Shown piece by piece: positions 760 to 54,369 of a DNA stretch of 64,000 nt. The stretch covers positions 496,001 through 560,000 of the forward strand of contig FOZN01000002.1 of assembly GCA_900114805.1 (NCBI GenBank). The letters run 5' to 3'. Each line of letters starts with the position of its first letter. Within the stretch, counting starts at the first letter, position 1. Under the pieces are notes generated by a model that worked only from the letters and a program-made list of their open reading frames with translations, had not been told where the DNA came from and ran no database searches. Source of the DNA: Agrococcus baldri (GTDB lineage Bacteria > Actinomycetota > Actinomycetes > Actinomycetales > Microbacteriaceae). A program made the position numbers and the translations under genes.

Positions 760-2069
760 GGCTGCAGCCCGGCGATCGCGGGGCGGAAGCCCAGGCGCGG
801 GTTCTCGCAGCAGCCCGGCCGGCACACGTCGTACCAGGCGGGGATCGACGTGACCGCCTTCCGCTCGGCGACCGGCCTGCCCTCGAGCCGCTCCTGCACG
901 AGGTCGACGAGCGCGCTCACGTACTGGGGGTCGACGCCCGGCGTGGGCGCGCGTCGCACCCACAGCCCCGCCTCGGTGGCCGTCTCGATGGCCTCCTCGT
1001 CGAGATCCCACATGACCTCCATGTGGTCGCTCACGAAGCCGAGCGGCACGATCACCACGGCCGCGCGGCCCTGCAGCGCACCGATGGCGTCGTTGATGTC
1101 GGGCTCGAGCCACGGCTGCGAGGCGGGCCCGGAGCGCGACTGGTAGACGAGCTGCCAGGCGACGTCGGGCGCAGCCTCGGCCATCACGTGCTCCGCGGCG
1201 GCGAGGTGCTGGCCCTCGTAGCCGCCGCCCGGCCCCCACTGGTGCAGGTCGGGCGCTCCCGAGCGCTCTGCGTCGGCTGTGGGGATGGAGTGGGTGGCGA
1301 AGAGCACCTCGATGTCGCCATCGGCGAAGCCGGCCGCCCGTGCCTCGTCGACGGATGCGCGCACGCCGTCGACGAAGGGAGCCAGGAACCCGGGGTGGTT
1401 GAAGAACTGCCGCACCTTGTCGATCTGCAGCGTCGCCTGCAGGCCGGTGGCCTCCAGCGCGTCGGCCCAGTCCTCGCGGTACTGCCGGCAGGAGGAGTAG
1501 GAGGAGTAGGCGGAGGTGGGGATGGCGAGCAGCTTGGCCGCGCCCGCGTCGGCCGCCTGCTGCAGCGCCTCGTCGAGGTAGGGCGCCCAGTTGCGGTTGC
1601 CCCAGTAGACCGGCAGCTCGACGCCCGCCGCGGCGAGCGCGCCCTCGAGCGCGGCCTTCAGGTCGCGGTTCTGCTGGTTGATGGGGCTGACCCCGCCGAA
1701 GTGGCGGTAGTGGGTGGAGACCTCCTCCAGCCGCTCGTCGGGGATGCCGCGGCCGCGCGTGACGTTGCGCAGGAAGGGGATGACGTCGTCCTGCCCCTCC
1801 GGCCCGCCGAAGCCCGACAGCAGGATGCCGTCGTAGGCGACCGGCTCCTCGACGTGCTCGGGGCCGGCCTGCGCGGCGGGCGTCGCGCTCGGCACGGCCG
1901 CGCCGGGCTCGACGTGCACGCCGGTCGCGGCGGGCGCCTTCGTCTCGCGCCGCGCCTGCTGCTGCGCCTGCTGCTGCTCGGTCTGCGCCTGCACGCCGCC
2001 GCAGCAGCCGCCACCGCAGCATCCGCCGGCCGGCGCTGCCGCCTGGCTCATCTCCATCGACTCGCTCAC
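756..2069 (-). CDS. cpfC: coproporphyrin ferrochelatase with Cys-rich N-terminal extension
   Basis: Inserts Fe(II) into coproporphyrin III. The presence of hemQ next door indicates the coproporphyrin route. 437 aa. The GTG start overlaps the hemQ stop (GTGA). The catalytic domain begins near residue 78 (YDGILLSGFGGPEG) and contains the ATHSIP histidine motif and YQSRSGP. Two odd features stand out. There is a ~75-residue N-terminal extension with two adjacent cysteine pairs (GGCCGGGCCGG, about residues 15-25) followed by a Gln-rich stretch. The C-terminus carries CRPGCC, which together with an internal SSC cysteine could ligate a [2Fe-2S] cluster as reported for some actinobacterial ferrochelatases; the spacing differs from the Mycobacterium tuberculosis pattern as I recall it, so this is inference. 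Confidence 0.94.
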   Translation of the reverse strand: MSESMEMSQAAAPAGGCCGGGCCGGVQAQTEQQQAQQQARRETKAPAATGVHVEPGAAVPSATPAAQAGPEHVEEPVAYDGILLSGFGGPEGQDDVIPFLRNVTRGRGIPDERLEEVSTHYRHFGGVSPINQQNRDLKAALEGALAAAGVELPVYWGNRNWAPYLDEALQQAADAGAAKLLAIPTSAYSSYSSCRQYREDWADALEATGLQATLQIDKVRQFFNHPGFLAPFVDGVRASVDEARAAGFADGDIEVLFATHSIPTADAERSGAPDLHQWGPGGGYEGQHLAAAEHVMAEAAPDVAWQLVYQSRSGPASQPWLEPDINDAIGALQGRAAVVIVPLGFVSDHMEVMWDLDEEAIETATEAGLWVRRAPTPGVDPQYVSALVDLVQERLEGRPVAERKAVTSIPAWYDVCRPGCCENPRLGFRPAIAGLQP

Positions 2070-2761
2070 GCGAGCACCTCCTCGATCTCGTCGGTGCCGA
2101 TGCGGCGACCGGTGAAGAAGGGGATCTCCTCGCGCACGTGCATGCGCGCGTCGACGGCCCGCAGCTCGCGCATCATGTCGACCAGCTCGGTGAGCTCGTC
2201 GGACTCCAGCGGGAGGATCCACTCGTAGTCGCCCAGCGCGAACGCCGAGACGGTGTTGGCCACGACGCCCCGGTAGGCGGCGCCGGCGCGGCCGTGCTCG
2301 GCGAGCATGCGGCTGCGCTCGGTCGGCTCCAGCAGGTACCAGTCGTAGGAGCGGTTGAAGGGGTAGACGGTCGCCCACGCCTTCGGCTCGACGCCGGTCA
2401 GGAAGCCGGGCACGTGGCGCTTGTTGAACTCGGCGTCGCGGTGCACGCCCATCGCGCCCCACACCTGCTCGGTGCCGGCGAGCTCGCGCGAGCGGCGGAT
2501 GCGGCGCACAGCCGCCTGCAGCGCCTCGGGAGGCGTGCCGCCACCGGGCGTGCCGTGCATCCAGACCAGGATGTCGGCGTCCGAGCGCATGCCGGAGATG
2601 TCGTAGATGCCGCGGGTGACCACGCCCTGCGCTGCCAGCGCGGCGAGCTCATCAGCCAGCGGGGCGCGCCCGCCAGAGCCGTGCGTGGTCTGCGCCTGGC
2701 TGCCGCGCTTGAACACTGCCCAGATGGTGAAGCCGTCGCCGATGGGCGTCTCGTCGCTCAT
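2066..2761 (-). CDS. hemQ: coproheme decarboxylase HemQ (ChdC)
   Basis: Peroxide-dependent decarboxylation of coproheme III to haem b, the last step of the coproporphyrin-dependent pathway. 231 aa, chlorite-dismutase fold. The segment VYPFNRSYDWYLL carries the expected reactive Tyr, and MLAEHGRAG supplies the likely proximal haem-ligand His. The Ala-rich segment downstream of this His fits the actinobacterial clade rather than true chlorite dismutases. The ATG start overlaps the stop of cgoX (ATGA). It lies between the oxidase and the ferrochelatase, the same order as the pathway. No signal peptide is visible; cytosolic. Confidence 0.95.
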   Translation of the reverse strand: MSDETPIGDGFTIWAVFKRGSQAQTTHGSGGRAPLADELAALAAQGVVTRGIYDISGMRSDADILVWMHGTPGGGTPPEALQAAVRRIRRSRELAGTEQVWGAMGVHRDAEFNKRHVPGFLTGVEPKAWATVYPFNRSYDWYLLEPTERSRMLAEHGRAGAAYRGVVANTVSAFALGDYEWILPLESDELTELVDMMRELRAVDARMHVREEIPFFTGRRIGTDEIEEVLA

Positions 2762-4518
2762 GTGTCTCCTCGCTCGTCTGCCTCTGCCGCCGCTGCGGCG
2801 GTGTCGTCCAGCGCCTCCTCGGGCGCGATGTCTGCCGTCCAAGGGGTGCCCGGCTCCGCGAAGCGCTCGCGGCGGATCTCGAGCGCCGCCCTGCGGGCGT
2901 CGGGCACCACCTGCGCCAGGCCCGTGCCGGCGACGGCGGCGCCGACCACGAGCAGGTTGTCGTGCGCGGCCGCGGCATCCCGCAGCGCCTGCTGGCGCTG
3001 CCGGGCGCCGATGATGCTCGCCGGCTGGCCCTGCTCCCAGCGCACTCGGGCGCTCGCGAGGGGCTGGGGCAGCGCGGTGCCGAAGATGGCCCGCGCGTCC
3101 TCGAGCGCCAGCGCGGCGGCGGCATCGTCGTCGAGCCCTGCCGTGGCCGGGGCGGCGGTGCCGGAGCCGTAGGAGAGGCGCACGATCTCGCGGCCGCCCG
3201 CGGCCTCGCGCAGCCACGCCCACTTCGCGGTGGCGTGGGTCATCGCCTTCGCGCGCACCTGCGTGGCGTCGGCGGCCACCAGCACGCCGGTGCCGCGCGG
3301 GTCGCCCTCGATGGCGCCGGCGGGGAAGACGAGGGTGACGAGCTCGACGGTGACGCCCTGCTCCTGGTCCCGCTGGTCGAGCAGCCCGACGGCGTCGGGC
3401 GCATCGAGACCATGCTCGCTCGATGGATCGCCGGTCGTCTCGATGCGCGGCCCACGGCCGCTGGCCGACGACCGTGCGGACTCCAGCACGCGGCGCGCCT
3501 CTGCCTCGGGGAGCGCGACGACCAGCGACGACGCGGCGTGACTGCCGGCATCCGTCGTCACGAGCCAGCCGGAGCCCGTCTCGGCGGCCGACCGCACGCG
3601 CTCGCCCGTGCGGATCTCGGCGTGATGCGCGAGCGCCCGCTCGGCGAGCCCCTCGGCGATGCGGTGGATGCCGCCGCGCAGGCCCTGCACCGCGCTGCCC
3701 GGCTTGGCGCCGGTCGCGGCGGCTGCACCGGGGGTCGCGGCGCGCTCCTCGAGCACGAGCGCGACGCCGCCGGAGAGCGAGCCGGTGCGGGTGATGCCGC
3801 CGTTGAGACCGGGCGCGACGACGGCGAGGTCGAGCTGCTCGGGGTCGGCCGAGTAGACGCCGCCGGCGAGCGGCGCGACCAGCCGGTCGAGCACCTTCTG
3901 CCCCATGCGGCGGCGCACGAGCGGCCCGAGCGCGTCATCGGTGCCGATGCGCAGCACGGGCATGAGGCGGTCGAGGTGGGCGCGCAGCGCCCCGCCCCAG
4001 CCGAGCGCGTCGATGACGTCCTGCGCGAGCGGGGTCGAGGGGATGCCCAGCAGCGTCCGCTTGGGCAGCGGCACGGCGCGATGCGATCCGCCGCCGCCGG
4101 GCAGCAGCAGCCAGGCGCCCGCAGGGTTGGGGTCGACGATGTCGTCGGCCATGCCCAGCTCGCCGATGAGCTCGGCGACGGCGCCGCCGCGCACGGCGAA
4201 CGACTCGGCGCCCGCATCGAGCGCCAGCGCGTCCGAGCCGGGGGCGGCGAGTGCGAGCTTCGACGCCGTGCCGCCGATGCGCTCCGCCGCCTCGAGCACC
4301 AGCACCCGGTAGCCGCGCGCCGCCAGGTCGTGGGCGATCGTCAGGCCGGCGATGCCGGCGCCGGCCACGATCGTGTCGTACCGCGCGGGCCCGTCGGGGG
4401 CCGACGCATCCGTCTGCACCGCGTGGTCGGCCGGCACCGCATGGTCGGCCGGCGCCGCGTGGTCGGCCGGCCCCGCGCCATCCGCCATCGGTTCGCCGGT
4501 GGCCGCGTCGGCGCTCAC
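2758..4518 (-). CDS. cgoX: coproporphyrinogen III oxidase / protoporphyrinogen oxidase family flavoprotein (HemY/CgoX)
   Basis: FAD-dependent oxidation of coproporphyrinogen III to coproporphyrin III (CgoX, formerly HemY/HemG). 586 aa. The GTG start overlaps the hemE stop (GTGA). An alternative is an ATG ten codons downstream. The dinucleotide-binding motif VAGAGIAGLTIAHDL begins near residue 42, followed by LEAAERIGG. The C-terminal VVGAAVAGTGLAQVV is the second FAD-contact motif of this family. Residues 13-35 before the Rossmann fold consist of repeated ADHA-type units encoded by three 18-bp tandem repeats, an apparently dispensable linker. The gene order implies CgoX activity on coproporphyrinogen. 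Confidence 0.94.
   Translation of the reverse strand: MSADAATGEPMADGAGPADHAAPADHAVPADHAVQTDASAPDGPARYDTIVAGAGIAGLTIAHDLAARGYRVLVLEAAERIGGTASKLALAAPGSDALALDAGAESFAVRGGAVAELIGELGMADDIVDPNPAGAWLLLPGGGGSHRAVPLPKRTLLGIPSTPLAQDVIDALGWGGALRAHLDRLMPVLRIGTDDALGPLVRRRMGQKVLDRLVAPLAGGVYSADPEQLDLAVVAPGLNGGITRTGSLSGGVALVLEERAATPGAAAATGAKPGSAVQGLRGGIHRIAEGLAERALAHHAEIRTGERVRSAAETGSGWLVTTDAGSHAASSLVVALPEAEARRVLESARSSASGRGPRIETTGDPSSEHGLDAPDAVGLLDQRDQEQGVTVELVTLVFPAGAIEGDPRGTGVLVAADATQVRAKAMTHATAKWAWLREAAGGREIVRLSYGSGTAAPATAGLDDDAAAALALEDARAIFGTALPQPLASARVRWEQGQPASIIGARQRQQALRDAAAAHDNLLVVGAAVAGTGLAQVVPDARRAALEIRRERFAEPGTPWTADIAPEEALDDTAAAAAEADERGDT
4422..4475 (-). repeat. three 18-bp tandem repeats inside cgoX
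   Basis: Three consecutive 18-bp units (4422-4439, 4440-4457, 4458-4475) differ at only a few positions and each contains TGGTCGGCCGGC. On the coding strand they encode PADHA-type hexapeptides in the N-terminal tail of CgoX. The unit keeps the frame, so copy number could vary by slippage without breaking the gene. Confidence 0.85.
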
Positions 4519-5627
4519 CGCTCGTGCACCGCCTGCACAATGCGGGTCAGCACCGTCGGGTCGGCCGTCGGCGGCACGCCGTGGCCCAGGTTGAACACGT
4601 GCGCGCGGGCGACCGAGCCTGCCATCAGCACGTGGTCGATGGCCGCCTCGATGATCTCCCACGGCGCACCGAGCACCGCTGGGTCGAGGTTGCCCTGCAC
4701 GGTCACGTCGCCGTCGATGCGCTCGAGGGCGACGTCGAGCGCCACGCGCCAGTCGACGCCCACCGCGTCCACGTCGAGGTTCATGGCGCTGTAGAGCTCG
4801 CCCGCGCCGACGCCGAAGTGCACGAGCGGCACGTGGCGGCCGGAGGCGTCGGCGAGGTCGCGCACGTGCTCGAACGCCAGTCGCGAGGCGGGTGCCACGT
4901 GCTCCTGGTACTGGTCGAGCGGCAGCGAGCCGGCCCACGAGTCGAACAGCTGGGCGGCGCTGGCGCCCTCGACGACCTGCGCCCGCAGGAAGCGGCCGGT
5001 GACCTCGGCGGCCCAGCGGGTGAGCCGATCCCAGGACTCCGGGTACGAGCGCATGAGGGTGCGGGCCTCGAGGTGATCCTTCGAGGGGCGACCGGCGACC
5101 AGGTAGGCGGCGAGCGTGAAGGGGGCGCCGGCGAAGCCGATCAGCGGCGTCGTGCCGTCGCCGATCTCGGTCAGACCCGCGACCGTCTGCCGCACCGCCT
5201 CGCGCACCGGCTCGAGCGCGACGTCGAGGCCGGCCGGGTCGCTGGCGATCAGCCGCTCGACGTCGTCCGGGGTGCGGATGGGTTGGGCCACCACGGGCCC
5301 GACGCCCGGCTCGATCCGCACGTCGACGCCGGCGAGCTTGAGCGGCACCATGATGTCGCTGAAGAAGATGGCCGCGTCGACGCCGTGGCGGCGCACGGGC
5401 TGCAGGGTGATCTCGCTCGCGAGCTCTGGCACGAGGCAGGTCTCGAGCATGTCGCGGGCGGGCGAGTCGGTGCGGGCGCGCAGCTCGCGGTACTCGGGCA
5501 GCGACCGACCGGCCTGCCGCATGAACCAGACGGGGGTGACCTCGGGGCGGTCGCCGCGGTACGCGCGCACCAGGCGGGAGTCGCTGGTGCGCGAGTTGAG
5601 CGGGTGGTCTTCACGGAGCGCAGGCAT
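4515..5627 (-). CDS. hemE: uroporphyrinogen decarboxylase HemE
   Basis: Decarboxylates the four acetate side chains of uroporphyrinogen III to give coproporphyrinogen III. 370 aa, of normal family length. The N-terminal signature PVWFMRQAGRSLPEYR is present near residue 30, and GFAGAPFTLA is the second family block. First gene of the leftward hem operon. The ATG at 5627 is preceded by GAGAAT seven bases upstream, which fits a leaderless promoter. An in-frame ATG at 5636 would sit inside that hexamer and is less likely. The 98-bp gap to hemA is a shared divergent promoter region. Confidence 0.96.
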   Translation of the reverse strand: MPALREDHPLNSRTSDSRLVRAYRGDRPEVTPVWFMRQAGRSLPEYRELRARTDSPARDMLETCLVPELASEITLQPVRRHGVDAAIFFSDIMVPLKLAGVDVRIEPGVGPVVAQPIRTPDDVERLIASDPAGLDVALEPVREAVRQTVAGLTEIGDGTTPLIGFAGAPFTLAAYLVAGRPSKDHLEARTLMRSYPESWDRLTRWAAEVTGRFLRAQVVEGASAAQLFDSWAGSLPLDQYQEHVAPASRLAFEHVRDLADASGRHVPLVHFGVGAGELYSAMNLDVDAVGVDWRVALDVALERIDGDVTVQGNLDPAVLGAPWEIIEAAIDHVLMAGSVARAHVFNLGHGVPPTADPTVLTRIVQAVHER

Positions 5628-5634
5628 CGCCCCC

Positions 5635-5640
5635 ATTCTC
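5635..5640 (-). promoter_or_regulatory. putative -10 of leaderless hemE promoter
   Basis: GAGAAT on the minus strand ends seven bases before the hemE ATG. The spacing matches the other leaderless-type starts in this window, but the hexamer is off-consensus and no good -35 is visible. Confidence 0.4.
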
Positions 5641-5713
5641 CCACTTTCCCCGGCCCCATCGGCCAGCCCGCCGCGATCGCCCGCTGGGAGCCCGAGAGGG
5701 ACGGGGGACACGG

Positions 5714-5725: not shown

Positions 5726-7183
5726 GTGCTGATCTGCCTCACGGCGAGTCACAAGAACGCCGACTTTACCGCCCTCGAGGCCTTGTCGACGGCAGACGCG
5801 GCACAGCTGCCCATCGCGTTCGCCGCCCATCCGGCGGTCGACGGCGCGGTCGTGGTCTCCACCTGCAACCGCTTCGAGGTCTACCTCGACGTGCAGGCCG
5901 ACGAGCGCTCGGCGGCGGGCATCGCGCAGACCGCAGCGGCGGATGCGCTCGGCTTCCACCACCCGGAGTCGCTCGAGCCGCTCACCGAGGTTCGCGCCGC
6001 CGAGCACCTGTTCGCGGTCGCCGCCGGGCTCGAGTCGGTCGTGGTCGGCGAGGGTGAGATAGCCGGTCAGGTGCGGCGCGCGCTCTCGATCGCGCAGGAG
6101 GCGGGCACCACCAGCGCGCACCTCGAGCGCCTGTTCCAGCGCGCCTCCGAGACGCAGCGCGGCATCAAGAACCGCACGGGCCTCGGCGAGGCGGGCCGCT
6201 CGATCGTGCGGCTCGGGCTCGATCTGGCGAGCGCCCGCATCGACATCGCCGACGCGCGCGTGCTGCTCGTCGGCACCGGCCGCTTCGCCGGCGTCTCGCT
6301 CGCCGAGCTGCGCCGCCGCGGAGCCCGGCACGTCGAGGTCTGGAGCCCCTCCGGCCGCGGCAACGGCTTCGCCCGCAGCCACGCGATCGGTCACGTCGAC
6401 GGCCGCGACGCCGCGCTGGCCGCCGCGAGCGCCGACATCATCGTCACCTGCACGAGCACCGAGGAGTTCGTGGTCGACGCGGCCCTCCTGCGCGCCGGCC
6501 GCCAGCAGCTGGCCGCCACCCACGCCTTCCCGGGCTCGGAGCCCGACGCCTCCCGCGCGGCCGGATGCCCGGTGCATCTGGGCGCGCACACCGGGGCCGC
6601 GCCGAGCGCCGTTGCCGCACCCGCACCGGCACTGTCCGCACCGGCTCTGTCCACACCGGCACTGTCCGCTCCCGCCGGCTGCCCCATGCACGCCGCGATC
6701 ACCGACGAGCCGCGCTGCCCCGTCGAGCACGGCCGCTCGGCGCAGCTGATCGTCGACATGGGGATGCCGCGCAACGTCGACCCCGATGTGGCGACCGTGC
6801 ACGGCGTCGAGGTGCTCGACCTGGAGACCATCCGCCTGCACGCCCCGCTCGAGCACCTCACCGCCACCACTGATGCCCGCGACCTGGTGCGCAAGGCGGC
6901 GGAGCGCTTCGAGCGCGGCACCGCCGAGCGACAGGTCGGGCCTGCCATCGCGGCGCTGCGCCAGCACGTGCAGGAGGCCATGGAGGCAGAGCTCGAGCGC
7001 ATCGGCAAGCGCGGCACCGAGGATGAGCGCCGACTCGCCGAGCAGGCACTGCGCCATTTCGCCGGCGTGCTGCTGCACAAGCCGACCGTGCGCGCCCGGG
7101 AGCTCGCCGCCGAGGGCCGCCACGACGACTTCCTGTCGGCGATCGACGCGCTCTACGGCATCGCCGCCGACGACGTCGCGTGA
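5726..7183 (+). CDS. hemA: glutamyl-tRNA reductase HemA with Cys-Pro-rich insertion
   Basis: NADPH-dependent reduction of glutamyl-tRNA to glutamate-1-semialdehyde, the committed step of haem synthesis. 485 aa, longer than most homologues. The catalytic cysteine is C47 in VVSTCNRFEVY, and SVVVGEGEIAGQV and FQRASETQRGIKNRT follow. The NADPH domain (VLLVGTGRFAGVSLA) is interrupted after about residue 265 by a ~70-residue insertion of low complexity (AP/ALS repeats). It holds three Cys-Pro motifs, CPVH (C281), CPMH (C319) and CPVEH (C331); the fold resumes at LIVDMGMPRNVDP. The reading frame is continuous across the insertion. CP dipeptides are the core of haem regulatory motifs in other proteins, so haem feedback on this enzyme is a reasonable inference. 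Divergent from hemE and overlapping the next gene by 4 bp. Confidence 0.96.
   Translation: MLICLTASHKNADFTALEALSTADAAQLPIAFAAHPAVDGAVVVSTCNRFEVYLDVQADERSAAGIAQTAAADALGFHHPESLEPLTEVRAAEHLFAVAAGLESVVVGEGEIAGQVRRALSIAQEAGTTSAHLERLFQRASETQRGIKNRTGLGEAGRSIVRLGLDLASARIDIADARVLLVGTGRFAGVSLAELRRRGARHVEVWSPSGRGNGFARSHAIGHVDGRDAALAAASADIIVTCTSTEEFVVDAALLRAGRQQLAATHAFPGSEPDASRAAGCPVHLGAHTGAAPSAVAAPAPALSAPALSTPALSAPAGCPMHAAITDEPRCPVEHGRSAQLIVDMGMPRNVDPDVATVHGVEVLDLETIRLHAPLEHLTATTDARDLVRKAAERFERGTAERQVGPAIAALRQHVQEAMEAELERIGKRGTEDERRLAEQALRHFAGVLLHKPTVRARELAAEGRHDDFLSAIDALYGIAADDVA
6621..6665 (+). repeat. three 15-bp tandem repeats inside the hemA insertion
   Basis: Units at 6621-6635, 6636-6650 and 6651-6665 share CC(G/A)CACCGGC(A/T)CTGT and encode successive PALSA/PALST pentapeptides. 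They form the linker between the first and second Cys-Pro motifs of HemA. Confidence 0.85.
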
Positions 7184-24589: not shown

Positions 24590-27500
24590 TCAGGCGTCGC
24601 GCTCGCGGCGCCTGACGAGGAGCAGCCCACCGGCGGCGAGGAGCGCGAGCCCGGCCGCGATCATGGACATCGGGAGCTCACCGCCCGTGCGTGGCAGGGT
24701 CGGCGTCGGCGCCGTCACGCCGGGCGGCGTCACCACCGTGGGCGGCGTGACCACACCGGGCACCGGGAGCACGTGCGTCGCCGATACCGTCACCGTGTTG
24801 GTGGGCGTCTCTGGCGAGCCATCGCCGGCGACCGCCGCCGTGTTCGCGAAGACGTCGCTCACGGTGGTGCCGGGCGCGTGCGCCGGAGCAGCCGGCACCT
24901 TCGCGGTGAAGGTGATCGTCACCATCTCGCCCGGCGCCATCGAGGCGATCTCGATGCGGTGCACGAGCCCGTTGAGCGTCGCCGTGCAGGTCACCGAGCA
25001 CGTGGCGAGGCCGTCGGGCATCAGGCCGTCGCGCAGCGTGTCGGTCACGACCACACCCGTCGTCGCGGCTGTGCCACCCGCGGTGACCACGACGCGGTAC
25101 TGCACGGTGTTGCCGTAGTCGACGACTCCGTCGCTCGCGACCCATCCGCCGTTCACCCACTCGAAGACCGACTTCTCGGCCGCGAGGCTGCCGCTGACGA
25201 GTGGCGTCTCCTCGCAGTCGATGTTGTTGGTGTCGGTCTCACAGGTGCCGTCGGTCGGGGCGAGGTCGTCCTCGGTGGTGACCGTGGCGAGGTTGACGCG
25301 CACGCCGGGCTCGGCATCCGCGTTCACGCTCACCTTCAGCACCAGCACCACACTGGCGCCGGCGGTGAGAGCGAGGGGGTTCACGGAGCAGGTGACCGTC
25401 TGGCCCGAAGCCGCACAGCCGGCGGGGCCGCTCACGTAGGTCAGGCCGGCGGGCAGCTGATCGGTCACCGTCACCGGCTCGCCGCCGTCGACATCTCGAT
25501 CGCCGACGTTCGTCACGGTGATCGTGTAGTCGAACTGCGCGCCTGGGCCTGCGATGGCGCCACCGTCATCCTTGTCGAGCGCAAGGTCGACCGGCGCGTC
25601 ATTGTTCTCGATGGTGCAGGTCGCTTCGTCGCCCACCCCCAGAGTGAGCGCACCTCCCTGCAGCGCACCGCCATCGCAGACCCAGCCGCTGGCTGTGTAG
25701 CCGGTCGGGCCGCCCGACTCGGAGAGCTGGTAGACGCCGGCCCTGACCGCGCGATTCGTGATCGCGTCGGCACCGTGCGTGCCGGTGACGCCAACGGTGG
25801 GGCCAGCGGCCGTCAGCGTCCAGCCGACGTCCGCTGCGTTGCCGCCGTCGTCGTTGACGACGACCTTCCGCAGCGTCAGTCGTGGCGCGATGTCATCGTT
25901 GGTGATCGTGCAGGTGACGTGCACGCCGCGGGGAACGGTGACCGTGTCGGTGGCAGGATCGAACGCGCCGTCGCAGACCCACTCGCTCGCCGCGTAGCCG
26001 GCAGGACCAGCGGACTCCGAGAGCACATAGTCGCCGGGGATCACCGGCACGGCTGCGACACCACCTGCGCCGGAGATGCCCGGCGTCGGGCCGGCGGCGG
26101 AGAGCGTCCAGTCGCTCGCCGTCGCCGTGCCGCCGTCGCCCACGATGACGTTCTTGATGAGCGTGAGCGAGCCCGCTTGGTCGTCGTTCGTCAGCTCGCA
26201 GTACGCGCGGTCGCCGTTGCTGAGCTCGATCTGCGCGTTCAGGATGCTGATCGGTTGCTGGCCGTTCGCGTCGGACCAGCAGGCGATGCCGGTCAGCGCC
26301 CAGCCGGCCACCGCGACCTCTCCGAGAGTGTAGGTGCCGGCCGAGACGGCGACGTTCGTCACCGCGGCACTGCCCTCGACGCCGCTCAGCGAGGTCGGGC
26401 CGGTCGCCGTCAGCGTGAAGTCGGTGTCGACAGCGCTGCCGCCGTTGTCGGCGACGAGGCGCTTGAGCAGCGTGAGGTGCGCAGGGCTGTCGTCGTTCGT
26501 GATCGAGCAGACCACTGTCGCGCCCTTCGCGATCGTGACGACACTGCCGACGACCTTCCCGCCGGTGCACGTCCAGCTGCTCGCGCTGTAGCCGTCGAGG
26601 CTGGTCTCGTGGAGCGTGTAGGAGCCGGCCGGAATGGAACCGGTGAGCGAACTGCCCACGCCGGAGATCGTGTCGAAGCCGGTGAGCGCGGCGCCACTGC
26701 TCCTGCTGGCCGTCAGCCTGAAGTCAGCCGCTGTCGCGGTGCCCCCATTGTTGTTGACGACGATCTTGTCCAAGGTCAGCGTCGCGCCGCGGTCACACTC
26801 GTCGCCGTTGTCGCCGTGGTCGTCGTCGCAGGGCTCCTCATCGTCATCACACCGGTCGCCATGACCGGGGACGCAAGGCTCCTCGTCATCGTCGCACCGG
26901 TCGCCATGCCTTGGGACACAAGGCTCCTCATCGTCATCGCACCGGTCGCCATGGCCCGAGGAGCACGGCTCCTCGCCGTCATCGCAGCGGTCATCGCCGC
27001 CGCCGCCCCAACCGCGGTCACCGCTCGTGGTCATATGCGAGTCCGAACCGTGACCCGGGACGCACGGCTCCTCGCCGTCGTCACAGCGGTCACCGTCGCC
27101 GTCGCCGCCCCAACCGCGGTCACCGCTGGTGGAGGCATGCGAGTCCGAACCGTGACCCGGGTAGCAGGGCTCCTGCCCGTCGTCGCAGCGGTCGCTGCCC
27201 GTCGCGACATACGAATCCGAACCGTGGACCAGGTAGCAAGGATCGTCACCGTCATCGCACCGGTCGTCGCCAGTGGCAACATACGAGTCCGACCCGTGGC
27301 CGGGATAGCAGGGATCCTCCGCGTCATCGCAGCGGTCGCCGTCGTCACCACCGCCGCCGCCTCGGTGGTCCCCGCTCGTGGCGGCTTGCGAGTCCGGCCG
27401 GTCGCCGTCCTCGCAGCGATCCTGCCCGTCGGCGCCATGGACCGGCCCCGTCGTGGCCGGCGCGGCCTGAGTCGTGACGGCCTCGACCGCGGGCGTCACG

Positions 27501-27805
27501 ACCGCGGGCGCGGCCTCCTCGACCGCCGGCGCGGGCTCCTCGACTTGGGGCACGACCTCCTCGACGACTGGCGCGACGTCCTCGCCCGCCGGCGCGACGT
27601 CCTCGACCTCAGTCGTGACATCGTCGAGCTCGGTCGTGGGATCGCCGACCTCGGAAGTGGTTGTGGAGGTGTCGACCGTCGTCGCATGTGCGGCGGGCAG
27701 CGCGATGAGCGGAGCGAACAAGCCGAGCGCAAGCGCGGCGGTCATCGCTGCGATGCGTCGTGCCGCCGGCATCGACGCCCTGTGGTGCTTCGCCCGCCCG
27801 TCCAT
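24590..27805 (-). CDS. large LPRTG-anchored surface protein with Cys/Asp repeat array
   Basis: 1071 aa. Signal peptide ends near residue 41 (LPAAHA). Residues 42-120 are a Thr/Glu/Pro-Ala stalk. Residues ~129-340 hold nine units of the type DRCDDGEEPC, spaced by GHGSDS or Gly-rich linkers. Four ~95-residue prealbumin-like domains follow (LTLxKxVVxxxGG ... YTLxE ... CxITNDD), then two DUF11 repeats. LPRTGG, a hydrophobic helix and RRRERDA form a sortase signal from residue ~1037. The start is ATG 27805 (GAGGAG six bases upstream) rather than ATG 27823. Probably a wall-anchored adhesin or stalk; the acidic Cys repeats may bind Ca2+ or be disulfide-linked. The sortase at 55-56 kb is class E, whose preferred motif is LAXTG, so the anchoring enzyme may lie elsewhere. 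Confidence 0.9.
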   Translation of the reverse strand: MDGRAKHHRASMPAARRIAAMTAALALGLFAPLIALPAAHATTVDTSTTTSEVGDPTTELDDVTTEVEDVAPAGEDVAPVVEEVVPQVEEPAPAVEEAAPAVVTPAVEAVTTQAAPATTGPVHGADGQDRCEDGDRPDSQAATSGDHRGGGGGDDGDRCDDAEDPCYPGHGSDSYVATGDDRCDDGDDPCYLVHGSDSYVATGSDRCDDGQEPCYPGHGSDSHASTSGDRGWGGDGDGDRCDDGEEPCVPGHGSDSHMTTSGDRGWGGGGDDRCDDGEEPCSSGHGDRCDDDEEPCVPRHGDRCDDDEEPCVPGHGDRCDDDEEPCDDDHGDNGDECDRGATLTLDKIVVNNNGGTATAADFRLTASRSSGAALTGFDTISGVGSSLTGSIPAGSYTLHETSLDGYSASSWTCTGGKVVGSVVTIAKGATVVCSITNDDSPAHLTLLKRLVADNGGSAVDTDFTLTATGPTSLSGVEGSAAVTNVAVSAGTYTLGEVAVAGWALTGIACWSDANGQQPISILNAQIELSNGDRAYCELTNDDQAGSLTLIKNVIVGDGGTATASDWTLSAAGPTPGISGAGGVAAVPVIPGDYVLSESAGPAGYAASEWVCDGAFDPATDTVTVPRGVHVTCTITNDDIAPRLTLRKVVVNDDGGNAADVGWTLTAAGPTVGVTGTHGADAITNRAVRAGVYQLSESGGPTGYTASGWVCDGGALQGGALTLGVGDEATCTIENNDAPVDLALDKDDGGAIAGPGAQFDYTITVTNVGDRDVDGGEPVTVTDQLPAGLTYVSGPAGCAASGQTVTCSVNPLALTAGASVVLVLKVSVNADAEPGVRVNLATVTTEDDLAPTDGTCETDTNNIDCEETPLVSGSLAAEKSVFEWVNGGWVASDGVVDYGNTVQYRVVVTAGGTAATTGVVVTDTLRDGLMPDGLATCSVTCTATLNGLVHRIEIASMAPGEMVTITFTAKVPAAPAHAPGTTVSDVFANTAAVAGDGSPETPTNTVTVSATHVLPVPGVVTPPTVVTPPGVTAPTPTLPRTGGELPMSMIAAGLALLAAGGLLLVRRRERDA
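26786..27421 (-). repeat. coding repeat array (DRCDDxxEPC units)
   Basis: Nine related units; the last four are near-perfect 45-bp tandem repeats encoding 15-residue HGDRCDDDEEPCVPG-type units (roughly 26800-26960). Earlier units are longer and separated by GSDS/SGDRGWGG spacers, which suggests older duplications. Confidence 0.88.
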
Positions 27806-52554: not shown

Positions 52555-54369
52555 GTGACCGACAGCATCATCGCGTCGCTGCGCACCCTCGGCGACCGCT
52601 ACGAGATCGGCGAGCTCATCGGCCAGGGCGGCATGGCGGAGGTGCACCTCGCCCGCGACACCCGCCTCGACCGGCAGGTGGCGGTCAAGCTGCTCAAGCC
52701 CGAGCTCTCGAAGGACCCGGAGTTCCGCACCCGCTTCCGGCAGGAGGCGCAGTCGGCGGCCCGGATGTCGCATCCCACCGTCGTGCGCGTCTTCGATGCC
52801 GGCGAGGAGCCAGCGGTCGACGCCGAGGGCGAGCCGGCCGCCGTGCCGTACATCGTCATGGAGTACGTCGACGGCCGCATGGTGAAGGACATCATCGCTG
52901 AGGGCCCGTTGCCGGAGGCCGAGGCGGTGCGCATCACGAAGGGCATCCTCACCGCCCTCGAGTACTCCCACCGCGCCGGCATCGTGCATCGCGACATCAA
53001 GCCCGGCAACGTCATGGTCACACCCGGCGGCCAGATCAAGGTGATGGACTTCGGCATCGCCCGCGCAGTCAGCGAGACCAGCGCCAACGTGGCCCAGACC
53101 GGCACCATCCTCGGCACCGCCGGCTACTTCTCCCCCGAGCAGGCCCGCGGCGAGTCGGTCGACGCCCGCACCGACCTGTACTCCACCGGCGTCATCCTCT
53201 TCGAGCTGCTCACGGGCGAGCCCCCGTTCAGCGCCGACACCGCGGTCGGGGTGGCCTATCAGCACGTCGCCGAGGAGCCGCCGACCACCTCGTCGGTCAC
53301 GCCCGGCGTCACGCCGCAGATGGACTCGGTGGTGCAGAAGGCGCTGCAGAAGCCGCGCGACGACCGCTTCCAGACGGCCACCGAGTTCAAGCAGGCACTG
53401 GACGACGCGCTCGCCGGTGTGCTCGTGCCGCTCGTGAAGACGCACACGGCACCGCTCGAGATCGGCGCGGCGACCACGATGTTCGCCGCGCTCGCCTCCG
53501 ACGATCCCGCCGCCGACGAGGTGCAGCCCGCGCGCACCCGCAGGCCGCATCTGGCCTGGCTGTGGGCGGCTGTCGCGCTCATCGCCGTGCTGGTGGTGGG
53601 CGCCGGCGTCTGGGCCTTCAGCCTCGGCAACCTGCCGATCGCGGGCCTCTCCACGCCCGTCCCCGACGTCATCTCCATGCAGGAGGAGGACGCGATCGCC
53701 GCGGTCGAGGCCGCCGGCTTGCGGGTGGAGGTGCGCCGCACGATCGACGCCGCCCCCGCCGGCACCGTGCTGCGCTCCGAGCCCGAGGCGGGCGTCAACA
53801 TCGCGCCCGGCGCCCCGGTGCAGCTGGTGATCTCGACCGGTCCTCCGCCGGAGCCGCTCATGAGCGTCTCCAACCTGACGGAGGCGCACGCCCGCCAAGC
53901 GCTGGAGGCCGCGGGCTACACCGTGGGGGAGGTGACCCGCGCCACCTCCCCGACCGTGGCTGCCGACCATGTGCTCAGCACCGAGCCGAGCGCCGGCACC
54001 GATGTGTCGCAGGGCGCGATCATCAATCTCGTGCTCTCCAACGGCAACGTCACCGTCCCCGACGTGACGAGCCTGCCGATCGCCTCGGCCGCCACGACGA
54101 TGCAGGATCTCGGCCTCACCGTCGAGCGCCGCTACACCCTGCGCTGCATGGGCGGCGACGTGGTCGAGCAGTCGCTCGCACCCGGCGACCACCCGCAGGG
54201 CAGCACCATCACGCTGCTCTACTGCAACGGCCAGCCCCCGCCCCCGCCCGAGCCGGAGCCCGAGCCCGAGCCCGAGCCAGATCCCCAGCCGAGCTCTCCT
54301 GGCAACGGGAACGGCGGCGGCAACGGCGGCGGGAACGGCGGCGGCGGAGGCGGCGGCGACGACGGCTGA
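52555..54369 (+). CDS. pknB: Ser/Thr protein kinase PknB with three PASTA domains
   Basis: 604 aa. Kinase: GQGGMAEVH, K45, HRDIKPGN (D147), DFG (D165), activation loop AQTGTILGTAGYFSPEQ with autophosphorylation threonines. Transmembrane helix near 330-352, then three PASTA repeats (PVPDVISMQEEDAIAAV, MSVSNLTEAHARQALEAAG, TVPDVTSLPIASAATTMQD) that bind muropeptides or lipid II. The third PASTA has two cysteines. The C-terminus is a Pro-Glu then Gly-Asn low-complexity tail (EPEPEPEPEPDP, GGGNGGGNGG). Most actinobacterial PknBs have four PASTA repeats; here there are three. Confidence 0.95.
   Translation: MTDSIIASLRTLGDRYEIGELIGQGGMAEVHLARDTRLDRQVAVKLLKPELSKDPEFRTRFRQEAQSAARMSHPTVVRVFDAGEEPAVDAEGEPAAVPYIVMEYVDGRMVKDIIAEGPLPEAEAVRITKGILTALEYSHRAGIVHRDIKPGNVMVTPGGQIKVMDFGIARAVSETSANVAQTGTILGTAGYFSPEQARGESVDARTDLYSTGVILFELLTGEPPFSADTAVGVAYQHVAEEPPTTSSVTPGVTPQMDSVVQKALQKPRDDRFQTATEFKQALDDALAGVLVPLVKTHTAPLEIGAATTMFAALASDDPAADEVQPARTRRPHLAWLWAAVALIAVLVVGAGVWAFSLGNLPIAGLSTPVPDVISMQEEDAIAAVEAAGLRVEVRRTIDAAPAGTVLRSEPEAGVNIAPGAPVQLVISTGPPPEPLMSVSNLTEAHARQALEAAGYTVGEVTRATSPTVAADHVLSTEPSAGTDVSQGAIINLVLSNGNVTVPDVTSLPIASAATTMQDLGLTVERRYTLRCMGGDVVEQSLAPGDHPQGSTITLLYCNGQPPPPPEPEPEPEPEPDPQPSSPGNGNGGGNGGGNGGGGGGGDDG

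Follow-up and report, generated by a model that had tools for sequence, protein, structure and literature searches.

Cys-Pro motifs of the haem regulatory type in flexible segments of actinobacterial glutamyl-tRNA reductase: a predicted site of haem feedback

Haem regulatory motifs (HRMs) consist of a Cys-Pro (CP) core, usually with basic residues before it and a hydrophobic residue after it (PMC4127239). Those described in Hap1, ALAS1/2, Bach1, IRP2 and Irr share the same Cys-Pro-hydrophobic pattern, are often repeated, and control genes or enzymes of haem and iron. The consensus given for Hap1 is K/R-C-P-V/I (PMC9491583), and the motif of the bacterial Irr protein reads G-C-P-W-H-D (PMC11442138). 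In ALAS1 the leader carries three CP motifs similar to the HRMs of Hap1 (PMC6154995).

For glutamyl-tRNA reductase (GluTR, also HemA or GtrR), haem feedback has been reported in B. subtilis, S. aureus, C. glutamicum and C. diphtheriae, four Gram-positive bacteria with a coproporphyrin-dependent pathway, where it works through HemX or through transcription (PMC10991733). The Salmonella enzyme binds haem via Cys170, and its haem-bound form has been proposed to be a protease substrate (PMC5801465); the haem-binding Cys170 and proteolysis are both described again elsewhere (PMC12288459). The M. tuberculosis enzyme made in E. coli was isolated with haem and in a complex with GluRS, pupylation is reported for that of M. 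smegmatis, and the S. aureus enzyme binds haem, the loss of which leaves haem homeostasis unaltered (PMC10991733), so haem bound to GluTR may have no regulatory role. A CP motif in GluTR is not reported in the titles, abstract beginnings and passages of the open-licence literature that we searched, nor does the phrase 'heme regulatory' occur in the available text of a review of the regulation of the pathway (PMC10991733). To this extent we agree with the initial annotation of the locus described here, which knew of no such arrangement in actinobacteria. What appears new is the combination of a known type of motif with a known enzyme, and an unusual pattern that looks like repeated gain.

The locus lies in a 64,000-nucleotide stretch of the Agrococcus baldri genome, the whole of which we call the window (Table 1). 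Its hemA product is a GluTR by its domains, by the Cys of its STCNR segment and by its fold. A Pfam scan finds all three GluTR domains (GlutR_N, PF05201; Shikimate_DH, PF01488; GlutR_dimer, PF00745), the TIGR01035 cut-off is exceeded once same-frame pieces are joined (218.3 bits), and the closest fold in the PDB is 4n7r_A (E 1.4e-19), with solved GluTRs matching best. The segment T46-C47-N48-R49 is invariant across the 51 rows of alignment A2, and Cys47 is presumably the catalytic Cys of the GluTR family. The nearest named relative is Agrococcus sp. KRD186, with 95% identity in HemA. The protein has six cysteines in all (residues 4, 47, 242, 281, 319 and 331), of which the last three are each followed by Pro.

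Table 1. Features of the hemA locus and its haem-gene neighbours, in window coordinates
Feature	Position	Strand	Basis or remark
hemA, glutamyl-tRNA reductase (GluTR)	5726..7183	+	GTG start, 485 aa plus stop
Codon of Cys47 in STCNR	5864..5866	+	Invariant in the 51-row alignment A2
Lengthened loop between helix and strand in the NADPH domain, residues 267-339	6524..6742	+	Model helix 252-266 and strand 340-344; loop lengths
Very-low-confidence segment, residues 279-335, read as disordered	6560..6730	+	pLDDT below 50
CP motif 1, C281-P-V-H (GCPVH)	6566..6577	+	Sequence
15-bp tandem repeat, Ala/Pro/Ser linker	6621..6669	+	3.3 copies, 88% matches; between motifs 1 and 2
CP motif 2, C319-P-M-H (GCPMH)	6680..6691	+	C319 and P320 unchanged in all 22 rows of alignment A1, where single-CP rows fall at the C319 column by the aligner's choice
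CP motif 3, C331-P-V-E-H (RCPVEH)	6716..6730	+	CPV[ED]HG conserved in Agrococcus
hemE (uroporphyrinogen decarboxylase)	4515..5660	-	Divergent neighbour of hemA; context only
hemQ-like (chlorite dismutase family)	2066..2758	-	Context only; CP absent

The three CP cysteines all lie in one unusually long loop. From VTCT to DMGM the A. baldri protein has 108 residues, while loops lacking CP have 26-60 in nearly all rows and commonly 27-38, the exceptions being one of 65, one of 95 and one frame-broken row, and the loop is therefore some 70 residues longer than usual. The interruption of the NADPH domain by about this length, the CPVH, CPMH and CPVEH motifs at their positions, the linker built of a 15-bp repeat, and the open frame with a core that resumes after the loop, all of which the initial annotation had read from the DNA, were each found again, the last also in the model. 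This model, of the A. baldri protein alone, was made with AlphaFold2 from the 51-row alignment, and has a mean pLDDT of 86.4 with 360 residues at 90 or more. The sole stretch below 50 (residues 279-335) starts just before C281, ends at the His of CPVEH, holds all three motifs and bridges the helix 252-266 to the strand 340-344, and the model thus places the motifs in what is predicted to be a flexible segment. In a Rossmann fold a helix-to-strand link of this kind faces away from the cofactor, and a long insert is therefore tolerable there.

Comparison with the described systems shows likeness to several of them. As with ALAS1, the first committed enzyme of ALA synthesis carries three CP motifs, though ALAS1 is an enzyme of the C4 route, with its motifs placed in a mitochondrial leader, where they affect import (PMC6154995). 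With Salmonella HemA the likeness is haem on GluTR itself through a Cys, linked to proteolysis (PMC5801465), whereas the A. baldri protein has no Cys between residues 47 and 242 by number, so that a site of the Cys170 type was not found in it, and its CP cysteines lie in a loop of low predicted order. The HrrSA and ChrSA systems of Corynebacterium are alike in that haem lowers the supply of HemA in actinobacteria (PMC10991733), but they do so through transcription, via two-component systems, and not at the protein level. Set against CP-type HRMs in general, the host here is GluTR, the basic residue before the Cys is mostly missing, and the binding of haem is a prediction.

Within Agrococcus the motifs are kept while the length and sequence of the linker drift freely (24 genomes). 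Among the 23 loops counted, which leave out one genome with a broken hemA frame (locus L019 of genome G018), three CP motifs are present in 17, two in 3 and one in 3, and 60 of the 62 loop cysteines belong to a CP pair. In 21 of 24 genomes, counting L019, motif 3 has the form CPV[ED]HG, and its codons vary synonymously for Pro (CCC in 14, CCG in 6, CCT in 1) and also for Val and Gly. In the 17 loops with three motifs, the second CP is directly followed by a hydrophobic residue and His in 16, and the first has a His three or four residues after the Cys in 8. The conservation of CP against a varying linker, which the initial annotation had proposed as its own check, thus holds in Agrococcus and well beyond it. 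The frame of L019 is broken near residue 272, before the loop, by a sequencing error or a real change, and beyond the break three CP motifs can be read from the loop in the second frame.

The motif is not peculiar to Agrococcus. We collected HemA from 157 Microbacteriaceae genomes covering 75 of 85 genera, one row per genome, in a set that favours insert-bearing genera and is not random. Rows dropped were L019, L031 (a Rhodococcus-like second copy in G244), L273 (frame-broken), L194 (from the same genome as L277) and the partial L132 and L147. CP is found in the loop in 64 of these 157 genomes (16/75 genera), in the C-terminal tail in 11, in both in 3, and in neither in 85. The original observation is real in Agrococcus and was too narrow in scope, given the 16 genera and the other families that carry the motif elsewhere in the protein. 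The opposite notion, that every HemA of the family has CP in loop or tail, is rejected by the same 85 genomes. The tail motif is present in 4/4 genomes of g63 (without loop CP), 3/3 of g70 (with both), 2/2 of g73, 1/1 of g21 and, without loop CP, in one genome of g85. It also occurs in 11 of 29 further named loci of the family (among L109-L140; possibly overlapping with the unnamed-genome set), namely L115, L117-L121, L124, L128-L130 and L135, from Microbacterium, Pseudoclavibacter, Gulosibacter and Zimmermannella. Among named members, a single motif adjoining the strand is seen in, for example, Okibacterium fritillariae, Leifsonia sp. ALI-44-B and Labedella (L103-L107, where L106 has CSAH instead).

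In a quick LG+G4 tree of 141 rows, built with the loop left out, all 49 rows with loop CP fall inside one 66-row clade (97% SH-aLRT), and the loop-CP state changes 7 times, compared to at least 32 times in 200 label shuffles. The simplest reading is one old gain followed by several losses, for a count that in itself cannot separate gain from loss. Members of this clade without CP in loop or tail are found in g79 (7/9), g46 (3/3), g26 (3/3) and g60 (1/1), and 7 of the 14 CP-less rows with loops longer than 45 residues belong to g79. Long loops of another kind occur in L287 and L272 (g15 and g48), which have a single Cys in RPFC or RPYC and not in CP, and the PPFC of named Leucobacter loci is similar to these. 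A HemA match is missing in 27 of 299 Microbacteriaceae genomes, which may lack haem synthesis; among the 20 of them that were listed, 16 have 2.0 Mb or less.

Outside Microbacteriaceae we find the motif in three further groups of the class. Family f2, of the same order, is probably Micrococcaceae, with 54% identity to Arthrobacter L142, its nearest named locus, which is itself without the motif. Of 40 f2 loci, sampled non-randomly from a search of 80 genomes (30 by best score and 10 picked), 29 have CP in the tail, most commonly as CPVDH (9/29), and 11 have no motif. In f19 and f21, sampled likewise as best-scoring plus picked loci and not at random, the Rossmann anchor was not found and region labels are unreliable, so motifs there were placed by residue number and sequence. 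By that placement, 13 of 15 f19 loci that bear an insert ahead of the Rossmann domain have CP in it, as do 3/3 of the class sample (for example, RCPVDH); in 34 other f19 loci (L418-L446, L462-L466) CP is absent from this place, and two of them have it near the C-terminus. Genus g107 of f21, which is probably Streptomyces, has CPLDL, CPLEL or CPLGL in 8 of 10 genomes, within a long insert of the loop that is also extended in Agrococcus, and CP is absent in 34 loci from other f21 genera. The class-level sample has 70 loci, with genome G439 appearing twice; outside f2, f19 and f21 (n=58) it has 3 loci with CP, near residue 39 or 226 and outside these segments. Spread beyond the class is rejected, as CP is present in 1 of 47 phylum-level loci, in the tail of a Cys-rich protein. 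Four f20 loci (L323-L325, L357) have an insert before the Rossmann domain as in f19, Ala/Pro-rich in 3/4 and without CP, against which the f19 linkers could be set as a natural contrast. A second full-length hemA-like match is present in G413 and G617 of f2 and in G521, G657, G665 and G675 of f21.

Across the 175 motifs collected, the residue after CP is V, I, L, M or F in 153, A in 18 and H, Q or R in 4. Val alone accounts for 110, and a His lies within four positions after CP in 93; the CPLDL-like motif of g107 is without a near His. All three motifs of the window (CPV, CPM, CPV) have a hydrophobic residue at this position. An Arg precedes the Cys in motif 3 of the window and in 7 of 14 f19 motifs, and most others have G, E, S, A, T or V there. 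The Hap1 motif is also given as KCPVDH. Among the motifs known to us, that of GluTR fits the CP-type HRM and is a predicted haem site. The likeness to haem regulatory motifs drawn in the initial annotation stands in this form: the CP-hydrophobic core agrees with the motifs of Hap1 and Irr, but the basic residue is mostly missing. In sitting at flexible places that shift between lineages, CP also behaves as a short linear motif does.

Shuffling the residues provides a measure of how far CP exceeds chance. In the loop-CP clade (85 genomes of its 20 genera) Pro comes right after 101 of 105 loop cysteines, compared, when each loop is shuffled, to a mean of 11.8 and a maximum of 24 in 2000 trials, and with Agrococcus removed the figures are 41 of 43, with a mean of 5.3 and a maximum of 14. 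In f2 tails 29 of 31 cysteines are CP (expected 3.2, maximum 10), as are 14 of 16 in f19 inserts (expected 1.0, maximum 5). His also follows CP by one to three residues more often than in shuffles: in 18 f2 tails, where 2.6 are expected, in 20 of 41 loops of the clade without Agrococcus, where shuffles that keep CP fixed give 5.1, and 20 times in Agrococcus, for an expectation of 11.6 and a 99th percentile of 16. In f19 linkers it is not above chance (3, expected 1.8). Outside Agrococcus every CP-bearing loop has one CP (41 in 41 rows), and three motifs per loop are a special case.

The motif is not a general label within the genomes. DNA that could encode CP[hydrophobic]H shows no enrichment in the genome of A. 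baldri itself, at 29 matches compared to 30 in a reversed control, and a genome-wide CPxH tag on haem proteins is rejected, the other in-frame matches looking by eye ThrS-, primase-, TrmA- or Rieske-like, or antisense. Seventeen genomes, most of them selected for bearing the motif, were scanned at the DNA level for CPV[DE]H, which gave 45 matches, 14 of them HemA, compared to 11 for the reversed control. Among the 31 matches outside HemA, a Pfam scan of 27 frames found one domain (GFO/IDH oxidoreductase), and the other 4 frames are shorter than 90 aa. In these genomes, then, hardly any recognisable protein other than HemA carries CPV[DE]H.

We consider it rather probable that the loop of Agrococcus HemA holds three CP-type haem regulatory motifs on a disordered tether, through which haem turns the enzyme down. 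When haem is plentiful, a CP motif would bind ferric haem by its Cys thiolate, in many cases assisted by a His three or four residues after the Cys. Haem on the motif would lower HemA activity or mark the enzyme for breakdown, and the first step of the pathway would thereby be turned down by its end product. We infer both haem as the ligand and the outcome of the feedback, be it inhibition or degradation. What we see directly is the motif, kept while the linker drifts, in a segment predicted to have little order, and its return at different flexible places of GluTR; recurrence at three such places strengthens the regulatory reading. It also leads to a broader proposal, to which we give a little better than an even chance: that several actinobacterial GluTR lineages repeatedly gained a portable haem-sensing tag of the Cys-Pro-Val-Asp/Glu-His type in the loop, the inter-domain linker or the C-terminal tail. 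This would amount to convergent feedback at the protein level, a counterpart in the C5 route of the CP motifs of ALAS, tripled in Agrococcus.

Several points weigh against haem feedback. The motif is dispensable, as 85 of 157 Microbacteriaceae genomes are without it in loop or tail and 11 of 40 f2 loci lack it, and the missing basic residue, the absence of a near His in g107 and the chance level of His in f19 would fit a haem site less well. The S. aureus homeostasis result also counts against it, as does the argument that the HRM cysteines of HO-2 are a thiol/disulfide redox switch and not a haem site (PMC4127239). This last case is the precedent for a different account of the GluTR motif, in which HemA would be tuned to oxidative stress by its CP cysteines, pairing in disulfides or mixed thiols among themselves, with the partner subunit or with mycothiol. 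The presence of up to three CP cysteines in one Agrococcus loop agrees with it; however, loops outside Agrococcus have a single one, which weakens a disulfide switch, and a redox Cys needs no Pro after it, yet Pro is its constant partner here, so that we regard this as quite unlikely. The same single Cys argues against a zinc or Fe-S site within one chain. Pairs of Cys and His in a Cys-Pro-x-His arrangement, three of them in one Agrococcus loop, could ligate zinc, iron or an Fe-S cluster in place of haem, but one CP Cys per loop, with no near His in g107, offers too few ligands unless they are shared within the dimer. GluTR is a dimer, and a site shared between its subunits could still supply them. 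A zinc finger, with at least two Cys/His pairs to each site, does not fit these counts, and a metal site of any kind seems to us very unlikely.

Another account keeps the regulation and dispenses with haem: CP-V-x-H would be a docking or degradation motif bound by a protein partner, such as a protease adaptor, GluRS, HemL or a regulator of HemA. Docking motifs typically turn up, like this one, at several flexible places of a protein, and the M. tuberculosis GtrR-GluRS complex made in E. coli and the pupylated enzyme of M. smegmatis (PMC10991733) lend it some precedent. Against this, the CP motif matches described haem motifs, and its host is an enzyme of the haem pathway. We also know of no protein partner for the GluTR motif, and hold this account to be unlikely. 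That the loop is neutral filler, a low-complexity segment grown by repeat slippage in which CP arose by chance, is largely refuted and hardly credible. The 15-bp repeat and the highly variable lengths do show slippage of the linker, and CP has been lost in several members, but the 101 CP among 105 cysteines, where shuffles gave at most 24, reject chance or slippage alone, two other families show the like at other places of the protein, and codons vary synonymously while the residues stay.

The preferred reading, haem feedback through the CP motifs, would have practical consequences. Taken with the tags of related bacteria at other places of GluTR, those of Agrococcus suggest that haem directly controls its own production. 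If the tags bind haem, one Cys-to-Ala change would switch the feedback off in tractable laboratory organisms, giving a direct test of haem control over ALA synthesis and a handle for the production of ALA or haem.

Within the window, a CP tag shared by the haem-gene ORFs is rejected, as there are 0 CP in HemE (counted on the longer ORF 4515-5711), HemQ and the oxidase ORF. Tandem repeats are also found in the window away from hemA, densely at 26810-27660 (periods 45, 102, 72 and 21 bases) and as adjoining arrays at 54231-54366 (periods 3, 6, 12, 18 and 24).
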